64,000 nt of DNA from Desulfurobacteriaceae bacterium (lineage in GTDB: Bacteria > Aquificota > Aquificia > Desulfurobacteriales > Desulfurobacteriaceae): contig JAMOTD010000014.1 of NCBI GenBank assembly GCA_027068415.1, positions 62,001-126,000 on the forward strand. The letters are read 5' to 3'. Below the pieces are notes generated by a model. The model did no database searches, had not been told where the DNA came from, and worked only from the letters and a program-made list of their open reading frames with translations. This document shows, one piece after another, positions 43,141 through 47,432 of the stretch (the first letter of the stretch is position 1; each line of letters opens with the position of its first letter). The position numbers were made by a program, and so were the translations under genes.

Positions 43141-43296
43141 GTGGGAATTTACGATAGGGATTACTACAGGGAGAAGAAAGAAAAGGGGGGGAGCTCCCTC
43201 TCAAGGACGGTATTTAAACTTACCTGGTACCTAATAGTCTTCTTCTTTGTTGTTGCGTTTATCGTTTACGTTCTTGCAATCTTTTCGGAGAAGTGA
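43141..43296 (+). CDS. 51-residue single-span membrane protein
   Basis: A GTG 2 bases after the cysS stop, with AAGAGGA upstream, opens a 51-codon frame. MGIYDRDYYREKK, a flexible SSLSR linker, and one strongly hydrophobic helix (WYLIVFFFVVAFIVYVLAIF) are visible. The GIYDRDYYR start is reminiscent of the short N-terminal motif seen on some rhomboid/membrane proteins. It is followed by a strong terminator, so it ends the cysS operon. Function unknown. Confidence 0.65.
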   Translation: MGIYDRDYYREKKEKGGSSLSRTVFKLTWYLIVFFFVVAFIVYVLAIFSEK

Positions 43297-43325: not shown

Positions 43326-46300
43326 TTAACTCCTCTTCCTTCTCTTTCCGATTAGGAGTCCCAACAGTCCTGAAAGGAGAGCTCCGACGTTCGCAAGGCC
43401 GTTTGCGGCGCTTTGAGGAGCTCCCATTGAGCAACCGCCTCCTCCGCCGCCTCCGGAGGTTGAAACTGTGGTCGTAGATGTTGAAGAGGGTGCGCTTCCG
43501 ACAACTGCGAAGTAGCTGAGGTTCTGCCTTGCAAAGGTTACGAAGGGGTTGTCCGGGTCAACTGTAAACTCTGCCAGTTTGCTCCAGCTCTTACCGTCTT
43601 CGCTGACCATAACAGCCACTTTACCCGAGACCTTTTCGGGGTCGTACTTAACGGTAAAGGTAATGGGCGCGTTAAACTTGTTGTCCTTGGTGTGAATGTC
43701 AAGGATATCGGTTGCCAAAACGGGGTTCTCAATGCCCTCTTCCTTGGCTTTCTCTAAGGCGCCATCTTCAAGCTGTGAGTTCTCAACCTTTTCAACTTTA
43801 ACAGCCGTCGGTACGTCAACTGCTCCGGGCTCGGCAGAAATCTTGACCTCTTCGCTTACGGGGCCGCTGACTTTCCCGTCAGGCGTGATAAGATAGTAGC
43901 CCGCGTACTCCTTGCTCTCAACCGGGACTGAGGTGAACCTTGCCATAGCTCCCTGAGTAATGACAATCTTGCCGTCCTTAACCTCTGCTCCTTCGGGAAC
44001 CTTCCAGAATCCTGCGGCTTTAGATTCCTCAATTGCTTTCTCAGGTAGGGCCATCGGTGCGAGGGTTATCTCCCTTCCTGCGCTCTCATCTCCGCTCCAG
44101 ACTGCGGGGCTCAGCCTGTTCTTGCTCTCGTCCGAGTTGTGGCAGGCATTACAGGAGAAGGGACCATCCTTCTGGGCACCTAAAGAGTACTCCTTGGGCA
44201 GAACTCCGTGGTCAACTCCGAAGGGAGCCATTGCAAAGAGAATTACCGGGTCGTGGGGGTGGTCGGGGTCCTCTGCGTCAAGAACCTGCTTGAGGGCCTC
44301 CTTCATTGCCATGTACTCGGCATCGGTGTTGATTTCGGGCAGTCCGTCGCCGTTATCGTCGTCAATGTAGTCGGGAAGTCCTCCCGGATTGCCCTTAACC
44401 CAGTGGATTTTGTAGGCCAACTTGTGGGTGTTGGGGTTTATGGTTATTCCGGGAACGCTCTTTTCGGGCTCTTCGGGGTCAATGGTTGAGCGGCCTAAGG
44501 GTTTGCCGCTGCTATCGTAAGCAACTCCGTCAATTGCCATGTTCATCTCCCTGACAAAGAGAGCCCTTCCGGTCTTGGCATCAACCCAGGTTGCAACCTG
44601 AATCGGGTTTATGAGGCCTGCCTTAACGACGTCCTGACCGTCGTCTCCGATTGTGTGCCTCCTGATGATTACAGGCTCCCACCTCCAGGGGAAAAGACCC
44701 TTCTGAATCGCCCAGTTGCCGAACATAGTATTTCCTACCCTCATCATGGCCCTGTAGGGGTCCATGTCTATCTGGAAAATCGGGGCTGTTACGTCGTTTC
44801 CGTCGTCATCGGTCTGGGCGATTACGTAGGAGTAGTTAATTCCGTAGGTTGGGCTGGGAGCAAAGGCCGGTATTGCCCATTCAGGTGGAAATTGCTGGGC
44901 TACCAGCTGGTTGTCTTGTATGCTCATGCTCTTAAGCCTGTCGTCAAACTGGTTGGAGTAACCCATCGTGTCGTCAAAGAACCTGAAGCTCCAGTAGGTC
45001 TTAAAGGGAATGTGGCAGACCTGACACGTAATTGATGAGATGTGTGCCTTTGCAGCAGGACCGAACCAGTTTTCGTGAACCTTTGCCGCTGCCTCGTCCG
45101 AGCCCCAGTGGCATTTCTGGCAGGTCTGAACTGACGGGTTGTAGTCAAGTGCCGGCATGACCTCACCGGCCGGGTCGTTGCCCTTGAGGAAGTTGTGGGG
45201 GTTGTGCTTTAACTTCTCCTCTTTACTGAGGTTATCCTGCCCGTGGCACGACAGACAGGTTAAGTCCCCTTTGTTGCTGTCAAAGTGGACATCGTAGCCT
45301 ACCGGTAGACCTTCTGTTGCGTTTAAATTGGTGTTTATCTCGCCGTTTGAGTCAATTGCTATCGGTGCAACGGAGGGGTCGTTCTCGTGCTCCTGCGGAG
45401 CGTAAACGGCTCCCCTCTTAACGACGTCTGCTCCCAGGCCGATTATTCCCCTTCTTACGTACCAGGAGGGGAAGAACTGCTTGCCGTCGGGAGTCCACTT
45501 GTTCTCAGTATCGGGGATTGCGAAGTGGCACTGGGCACACATTAGCCCTAAGTCTTTATCGCTGCTTCCATTATGGTACTTCACTACTCCCGTCTCTTTT
45601 GTGCTGTCGGGCTTGGCGAGACTGTAGGCTCCGGAGGTTTGGAGAATCGGCAGTTGGACTTCCGATAGGTCAACGTCCTCTGCGTAGTAGGTTTTGGCCT
45701 CAAACCGGCCTGTTTCCGGGTTCTTCTTGAGGACTACAAAGGCGATGGGCTTTGTCGGGTCGTTGGGGTCAGCAATTCCCATTAAAGTTCCCGAATCGGC
45801 CCAGCCGAAGAAAAAGCCCGCCCTTGCAAGGTTAACTATCTTTGCGGTCTCGTTGGGGTCAAAGGGCTTGTAGGAGTAGCTGCTTGAGAGGTCTGTCTGC
45901 CTCAGGTAGAGGCCTCCTCCTACGTAGGGCTGTCCCTCAACTGTTGACTCGTAGAAGGCGTCTCTCAGGTAGTCCTTTGCTAAGTAGTTGGGAGCCCCGA
46001 CGTCAAGGTAGAATTGGCCGAAGAAGGAAGAGAGCCTGTTGCTATTCTGACTGTCGTCGTAGGTAAAGTTGTTTCCTCCGAATCGTGTGTAATCAATGTT
46101 AAAGCCGGTTGTAATGCCCCTTTTGAGAGCTCCCGTAATAACGGCCGTCGTGTAGCTCTTTATCCTTTCAAGGGTCTGCTGGTCAGCGTTTGATAAGTCT
46201 ATTCCCGAGTTCTCAATACAGTACTGGATAACGTCTGAGTAGTAGAGAGCTACAAGTCTTTCAAGGGGGTCTGAGTAGAAGGCTGCCGAGTCTATTGTAT

Positions 46301-47273
46301 AACCCTGATTTTTTTCCTCGTCGGTCAGCTGGGGCGGGAAGCCGAGAGTGATTTTAACCACTTTTCCGTCGGGGTCTTTTTTAACAAAGATGAAAACTCT
46401 CGGATTTGCGGGAGTCGGGTTAACAGCTTTCCAGCCGTTGGCTGTTTGAACTGTTAAGTTCTCACTCTCTGCAAGGCTTCTTGAAGCGTGGCAGAGGAAA
46501 CAGTCGGTATCAAGGACGCCCGACTTTTTCCAGTTAAACTTGTGAGGTTTACCGATGTAGCCCCTTGAGTATTCGTCTTGGGTGTACGAGAAAAGGTCTC
46601 CGTCAATTTGAGAGTCTTTGTAATCGGCCTGTGAAAAGAAGCCGCTTCCGTCCTTCGTCTCGTCCCAGCTCTCCTCTTCGTCGTGCCTTTTGCCGGTTAT
46701 TCTGTCAAACTCAAGAATTCCTCCCGAGTGGCAGGATGCACAGGTGAAAATTTTATCGGGAGTTCCCAAGTCAAAGGAGTATTTGGTATTTCCTCTGTAG
46801 TCAATTCCGTTATTCAGCTCGGGTTCAAGACCGGGGTCTTGGGAGGGGTTCTTTGCCGCCAACTGGCGGTAGGAAGGGGGTCACCAGGCTCCGTCGTCGC
46901 CGAAGGAGCGCAGGAACTTACGCCAGTCTTTACCTGCCTTTACCCTCTCGGCTCCAAAGTTATCGGCCATTTCGTCCCAGCCCCTTCCGATGTGGTAGGC
47001 GGCGTGAATCGGGCCGGGGGACTTAACACCTCCCTTCACGTCACCCGTAATTTCCGAGTGGCAGTAGCCGCAGGTTGCCTCCCAGCTTACTGGAGCTCCC
47101 GCGTAGTACTTCTTTCCTCCCACCTCTATGTAGTCGTTGGTGTCCTTTGTTATTAGGTTTCCGTTTATGTCTCTTAGGGGAACCGGGTCGTGGGAGGAGA
47201 GTGCCTGTCCTGTTAGGGCTAACAGGAAGGCAGAGCTCATGGTCAGAGTGCTCTTCCACCTCAGCCTTTTCAT
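43326..47273 (-). CDS. Octaheme c-type cytochrome with in-frame TGA (probable selenoprotein)
   Basis: Read through a single TGA (minus strand, 46883-46881), the frame encodes 1315 residues. A signal peptide is followed by eight CXXCH haem sites (first at residues 68-72, then CASCH, CFLCH, CAQCH, CLSCH, CQKCH, CQVCH, CNACH). A beta-rich C-terminal region and a sorting-like tail follow: seven Gly then CSMG, a hydrophobic helix, KRRKR. The TGA is residue 131, in GAW-U-PPSY, followed by a SECIS-like hairpin. The part after the TGA has no start-associated signal peptide, so read-through is needed to export its seven haems. The ATG at 47273 has AGAGGTG upstream. It probably carries respiratory electrons at the cell surface; the substrate is unknown. 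Geobacter ExtK/ExtL is a possible relative from memory, unverified. Confidence 0.85.
46856..46869 (-). promoter_or_regulatory. Putative bacterial SECIS hairpin
   Basis: On the mRNA sense, CCGCC and GGCGG form a perfect 5-bp stem around AGUU, starting 12 bases after the TGA; 16 bases separate the TGA from the loop. G as the second loop base, this spacing and this stem length fit published bacterial SECIS rules as I know them. It would bind SelB. Confidence 0.65.
46881..46883 (-). other. Probable selenocysteine codon (TGA)
   Basis: This TGA is the only stop between a signal-peptide-bearing 130-codon frame and a 1184-codon continuation in the same frame with seven haem-binding motifs. Context Trp-UGA-Pro-Pro. 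Confidence 0.7.
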
Positions 47274-47432
47274 TATCACCTCTGAATTGGATACATTCAA
47301 AGAATATTTTATTTAGATATTTAGAAAATTCAAGATAGCTTTTAATAGAATAAGAAAGTTTGAATTTATTGAGAATAAAGATTTCTTTATCTGTTAATTC
47401 TGGCTCTGTTGATGAGGAGAGAAGGAGGAGCT

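Follow-up and report, generated by a model that had tools for sequence, protein, structure and literature searches.

The cytochrome locus and its in-frame TGA

The window, the whole stretch of 64,000 nucleotides analysed here from the genome of a Desulfurobacteriaceae bacterium (assembly GCA_027068415.1, contig JAMOTD010000014.1), carries on its minus strand a gene for a large cytochrome with eight CXXCH haem sites, hereafter type A, in which codon 131 is a TGA that is very likely read as selenocysteine (Sec). The features of the locus, in the direction of transcription, are as follows:

43326..47273 (-), type A octahaem cytochrome gene, very likely a seleno-cytochrome; 1315 residues with Sec at 131 in read-through translation
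47277..47283 (-), Shine-Dalgarno-like AGAGGTG, 5' of the ATG (by sequence)
47273 (-), ATG start codon
47196..47273 (-), signal peptide MKRLRWKSTLTMSSAFLLALTGQALS, end approximate (by sequence)
47058..47072 (-), haem site 1, CGYCH, residue 68
46881..46883 (-), TGA codon 131, read as Sec, between haem sites 1 and 2; invariant in 27 of 27 type A and B genes and nine of nine type C genes
46856..46869 (-), putative SECIS hairpin CCGCC-AGTT-GGCGG; 11 nt lie between the TGA and the stem, 16 nt between the TGA and the loop
46728..46742 (-), haem site 2, CASCH, residue 178
46488..46502 (-), haem site 3, CFLCH, residue 258
45525..45539 (-), haem site 4, CAQCH, residue 579
45243..45257 (-), haem site 5, CLSCH, residue 673
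45108..45122 (-), haem site 6, CQKCH, residue 718
45012..45026 (-), haem site 7, CQVCH, residue 750
44139..44153 (-), haem site 8, CNACH, residue 1041
43329..43454 (-), C-terminal sorting-like tail: GGGGGGGCSMG, hydrophobic stretch, KRRKR (by sequence)
43326-43328 (-), TAA stop codon
43303..43319 (-), GC-rich inverted repeat 3' of the stop, likely a terminator (by sequence)

An earlier note, made from the sequence alone, had described a 130-codon frame that encodes a signal peptide and a single haem site and ends at TGA, and a continuation of the same frame for 1184 codons with seven more CXXCH sites and no signal peptide of its own. Both descriptions held, with the amendment that the 130 codons are not a separate gene and hold the signal peptide and haem site 1 (CGYCH) of one cytochrome. 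The note had also claimed that annotation would split the gene in two, and mechanical ORF calling does split it. The first start-like codon of the downstream frame is a TTG (46862-46860) inside the conserved hairpin. Further downstream, residues 667-761, the region of haem 5, match PF14522/PF22113.

Beyond the 3' end of the gene, between it and cysS, lies an 82-bp segment (43213-43294) with 79% identity to sequence located about 1.3 kb beyond tRNA-Sec in a sister genome (G001). Read on the plus strand, this segment resembles the C-terminal portion of a small membrane protein.

Codon 131 is the only TGA in the window that connects an upstream open frame of 100 codons or more with a downstream one of 300 or more. 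The hairpin that follows was assessed by a purpose-made hairpin test in place of bSECISearch. Its exact geometry occurred after one of the 1956 TGA trinucleotides on both strands of the window, and it arose in 0.09% of trials when the peptide was recoded at random with synonymous codons. As in other bacterial SECIS elements, such as that of SelD, the hairpin lies directly after the UGA and has a four-nucleotide loop containing GU, and it fits the published bSECIS model (spacing 16-37 nt, loop 3-9 nt, stem 4-16 bp; PMC13188914). By itself, however, it is weak evidence, because a loose bSECIS definition is satisfied by 16% of all TGA. RNA folding of the TGA region was not unusual overall (z = -0.32), and an Rfam search of the whole window gave no match. 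The decisive evidence for the Sec reading is conservation across genomes rather than the hairpin.

Conservation of the TGA and hairpin among homologues

The comparison set comprised 101 related genomes, including 22 of the same family, and relatives of the cytochrome were present in 17 of these 22 Desulfurobacteriaceae. Type A has 13 members with the window gene included; its 12 orthologues are 59-82% identical to the window gene, carry one in-frame TGA each, and keep the basic start and hydrophobic stretch of the signal peptide. In several genomes type A is flanked by housekeeping genes, prfB and cysS among them. Fourteen paralogues from the family (type B), 36-41% identical to type A, adjoin alaS or other housekeeping genes. 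All 27 type A and B genes have one in-frame TGA, invariably within W-U-PPSYRQLAAK. A phylum-wide profile search of 136 genomes yielded a further and shorter octahaem cytochrome, type C, which shares about 25% identity with type A; all nine of its loci that were read have TGA within L-U-P/A-P-A-Y-R-Q-L-A-P together with the same hairpin core. A search with the pattern TGA-N9-TACCGCCAGTTGGCG found 36 exact copies, belonging to the 13 type A, 14 type B, and nine type C genes and located nowhere else, in 17 genomes of the family; the reversed control pattern had no copies in the same search. At the Sec position, all 36 loci have TGA, never TAA or TAG, and all share the hairpin and its spacing. The earlier note's claim of a 5-bp hairpin with an AGUU loop at SECIS spacing was upheld, and the window hairpin differs from other bacterial SECIS elements in being a nearly frozen sequence common to three paralogous families.

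The pattern of codon use around the TGA points to translation through it. The codons at positions +1 to +3 (Pro, Pro, Ser) each appear as three or four synonymous codons among the 27 type A and B genes with no amino-acid change; they vary only synonymously and are therefore translated, and they precede any possible restart codon. The hairpin codons TAC CGC CAG TTG GCG, by comparison, are invariant in all 27 genes. Across the 24 full-length type A and B genes used for the codon statistic, seven of the 207 degenerate columns with an invariant amino acid are also codon-invariant, and five of these seven are the hairpin codons (hypergeometric p = 7e-9). In type C, hairpin codons account for five of the eight codon-invariant columns among 178 (p = 4e-8). 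Because the sequences share ancestry, both p-values treat them as more independent than they are; the contrast with the neighbouring codons is evident all the same. No covariation was detected at any base pair of the hairpin.

The source genome of the window has one gene each of types A, B, and C. Its type C gene (L117:1729-4188 (-), equivalent to G000:C14:6729-9188) shares a contig with the window gene, at a distance of about 100 kb, and stands beside a ribulose-phosphate epimerase-like gene. Types A, B, and C are also found together in genome G002, which we take to be Thermovibrio ammonificans HB-1 (PMC3570795), and types A and C in G005, which we take to be Desulfurobacterium thermolithotrophum BSA (PMC3368423). 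By the hairpin pattern, types A-C are absent from G009, G014, G017, and G019 (genus g7) and from G010; G009, G010, and G014 keep selA, selB, and selD even so. A version of the TGA-hairpin word with two mismatches (TGAGGGGAAGGGTACTGCCGGTTGGCG; L129, G045:C1:159075-159101) in a genome of the same class (f4) is probably a chance occurrence. A wider genome scan, which used query-derived patterns only, returned solely MAGs of Desulfurobacteriaceae/Thermovibrio. Plasmid tblastn gave no matches, and sequence searches of the PDB gave no informative relative.

An octahaem paralogue without the TGA, type D, was detected in three genomes (L127:899-4309 (+), L126, and L128; genomes G013, G018, and G016). 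It has Ser at the Sec column and no hairpin, and it groups with type C in the tree. Sec could be ancestral and lost in type D if the tree is rooted at its midpoint, but the root is not established. In L127, the gene after type D encodes a diheme protein whose start is twin-Arg-like (MKRREFLKNIELVGIG). No homologue with Cys at the Sec column was found within the phylum, and the search beyond it was very limited; Cys homologues are a supportive rather than a strictly defining criterion for a selenoprotein.

Decoding of UGA 131

The machinery required for Sec insertion was largely recovered. In the source genome, selA, selB, and selD scored 622.8, 437.5, and 374 bits, all above cut-off, and selD carries its own in-frame TGA and so needs UGA decoding. 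The hairpin of selD (GCCC-GGTC-GGGC) has an xGUx loop in common with that of the cytochrome. For tRNA-Sec, the Rfam search of the source assembly returned other tRNAs only, below cut-off. ARAGORN found it in G001, G003, G004, G005, G006, G007, and G009, that is, in all relatives with a candidate locus that were scanned, and it is reported in T. ammonificans and D. thermolithotrophum (PMC4227106). In the source genome contig C33 ends at the tRNA-Gly of the tRNA-Sec cluster, and the remainder of the cluster is missing, so selC most likely lies in an assembly gap. SelD is a predicted selenoprotein (SG-U-GAK; L055, G000:C31:2171-3097). Formate dehydrogenase was considered as a further SECIS control, and its best matches in the source genome were without in-frame TGA; SelD and the cytochromes are possibly the major Sec users of this genome.

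Comparative evidence shows that the frame is read through as one, and Sec is by far the best explanation; that UGA 131 is decoded as Sec within one continuous octahaem cytochrome is accordingly very likely. The earlier note's reading of the gene as an octahaem cytochrome with Sec is thus strongly supported by conservation, while the presence of selenium in the protein is inferred and no protein data are available. In the proposed mechanism, SelA, SelB, SelC, and SelD would decode UGA 131 under the direction of the hairpin, whose loop starts 16 nt after the UGA, and the product would be a c-type cytochrome that is exported, binds eight haems and carries Sec between the first and the second of them.

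Among other readings, Sec decoding could serve as a selenium-sensing switch, giving the full enzyme with selenium and a secreted mono-haem fragment of 130 residues without it. The codons before the UGA do encode an entire signal peptide and a haem site, and termination there would leave an exportable fragment. However, such a fragment follows from the position of Sec alone, no evidence was seen that it is selected in its own right, and this reading is very unlikely. It is all but excluded that the UGA is a true stop between two adjacent genes or in a pseudogene, with the downstream part made by restart. The splitting of the gene by ORF calling is the point in its favour. Against it, the stop would have to be TGA and never TAA or TAG in 36 of 36 loci, codons +1 to +3 change only synonymously in types A and B although they lie 5' of any start codon, no second signal peptide is present downstream, and haem 1 would be parted from haems 2-8. 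An ordinary stop with a second signal peptide was sought among the homologues, and none has such an arrangement. Sequencing error or a pseudogene is ruled out by the agreement of independent genomes, and genome-wide UGA reassignment by the continued use of UGA as a stop, TGA being the ordinary stop of seven of the 44 long ORFs in the window.

Relation to known cytochromes and possible function

Seleno-cytochromes are rare, and a demonstrated role for their selenium was not found. The closest parallel is ExtKL (NF040886, 'cyt_C_like_Sec'; Geobacter GSU2937-2936), described from 2007 on (PMC1914089, PMC5877670, PMC13188914), which like the window gene encodes a c-type cytochrome whose in-frame TGA has been proposed to specify Sec, and which is split in annotation. 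ExtKL, however, has five haems, all N-terminal, is about 50 kDa, and belongs to the ext gene cluster, whereas the window cytochrome has eight haems with Sec between haems 1 and 2 and is encoded by a single gene. NF040886 (cut-off 250 bits) matched neither the cytochrome nor the source genome. The tetrathionate reductase family TIGR04315 is likewise octahaem, and its model matches the haem 5-7 region of the cytochrome over about 80-100 aligned positions, with scores of 33 bits for type A and 41.5 bits for type C against a curated cut-off of 375. One GenBank-annotated selenoprotein, WP_331457571.1, is listed under TIGR04315 in a 2026 review (PMC13188914), and its identity with type C is not excluded. 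By score, the cytochrome lies outside both of these curated candidate seleno-cytochrome families. The outer-surface cytochromes MtrC/MtrF/OmcA (PF22113, TIGR03507) are also large, exported, and multihaem, and PF22113 gave a short domain match (E 1.4e-7). The window cytochrome differs from them in being octahaem and Sec-containing and in its size and tail; its score with TIGR03507 (OmcA/MtrC decahaem) was 25.6 bits against a cut-off of 209, with eight CXXCH sites compared to ten haems. In the literature searched, no description of an octahaem seleno-cytochrome of types A-C was found, nor any paper on Desulfurobacteriaceae with multihaem cytochromes. The selenoprotein papers searched made no mention of Thermovibrio or Desulfurobacterium (PMC13188914 was searched for Desulfurobacter and Aquific only).

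The signal peptide and the glycine-rich, Cys, hydrophobic, and basic tail suggest that the cytochrome is likely exported and probably envelope-anchored. A similar tail was seen in the full-length paralogues, including types B, C, and D. No CTERM model scored above cut-off on this tail, and the Gly-rich/Cys motif was assigned by eye; the search for a rhombosortase gave a weak rhomboid match, as did all the controls. Seven His residues outside CXXCH are invariant in types A and B, for eight haems, and at least one haem is therefore without an obvious conserved distal His. This is consistent with a catalytic haem that has Sec close by or as its ligand, without proving it. The AlphaFold models had mean pLDDT of 48 for type A (residues 24-1075) and 50 for type C, so that the Sec-haem distance is not derivable, and Foldseek with the type C model gave no meaningful match.

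For the function, reduction of elemental sulfur or polysulfide is our first choice, a tentative inference made without activity data and held at clearly less than an even chance. It is inferred that Sec lies next to a catalytic haem, which would make the protein a terminal reductase and not merely a conduit for electrons. In such an enzyme the selenolate would attack the S-S bond or act as a labile axial ligand of the catalytic haem, and the other haems would deliver electrons from H2 oxidation. T. ammonificans uses S0 or nitrate as acceptors (PMC3570795), and D. thermolithotrophum S0, polysulfide, thiosulfate, or sulfite, and neither nitrate nor nitrite (PMC3368423); a sulfur or polysulfide reductase is favoured because S0 is the acceptor that the two species share. 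How T. ammonificans reduces sulfur has been described as unclear (PMC5441870). The inference rests on the distribution of the genes and the physiology of only two species, and some family members (genus g7 and G010) are without the genes.

A bolder reading, which we would not yet call probable, is that types A-C, of which a genome holds up to three, form a superfamily of octahaem seleno-cytochromes that has not been described before, and that their Sec is catalytic at or on a haem of an envelope-anchored respiratory S0/polysulfide reductase. If true, this Sec/c-haem active site would be one not known from any characterised enzyme. Sec at a haem, if that is where it sits, would represent a novel type of redox site and could supply the sulfur-reduction step that is missing in these hydrothermal-vent autotrophs. 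The group is well defined, with three genes per genome in the source MAG and T. ammonificans, and the claim is testable since T. ammonificans and D. thermolithotrophum are culturable. Because mechanical ORF calling splits them, such genes are likely hidden in annotated genomes and may have been missed or misread in proteomes.

Instead of a sulfur reductase, the protein could possibly be an extracellular wire to minerals or metals, with Sec as an axial ligand or structural metal site tuning an electron-transfer haem. In support of this, there are the matches to the MtrC/MtrF-like domain PF22113 and to class III cytochromes, the sorting-like C-terminus, and the conserved His that are one too few. 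In D. thermolithotrophum, moreover, the type A gene is convergent with a multihaem cluster (L096:108-8048) encoding a 28-haem cytochrome, a cytochrome b561, and an NHL-repeat protein, which looks like an electron-transfer conduit. Against it, Sec is usually kept for catalysis, and the accounts consulted describe neither of the two cultured species as reducing metals. A role in the reduction of tetrathionate, nitrite or some other nitrogen oxide, as in the octahaem nitrite and tetrathionate reductases, is unlikely. In its favour, TIGR04315 matches the region of haems 5-7 in part (33-41 bits), and the route from nitrite to ammonium in T. ammonificans has been described as unproven (PMC5441870). 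However, the scores are far below the cut-off of that family, and D. thermolithotrophum, which has types A and C, uses no nitrate or nitrite.

A gene for a PPIC-type peptidyl-prolyl isomerase was observed 3' of type B and near type A in T. ammonificans, and its product may aid folding or maturation.
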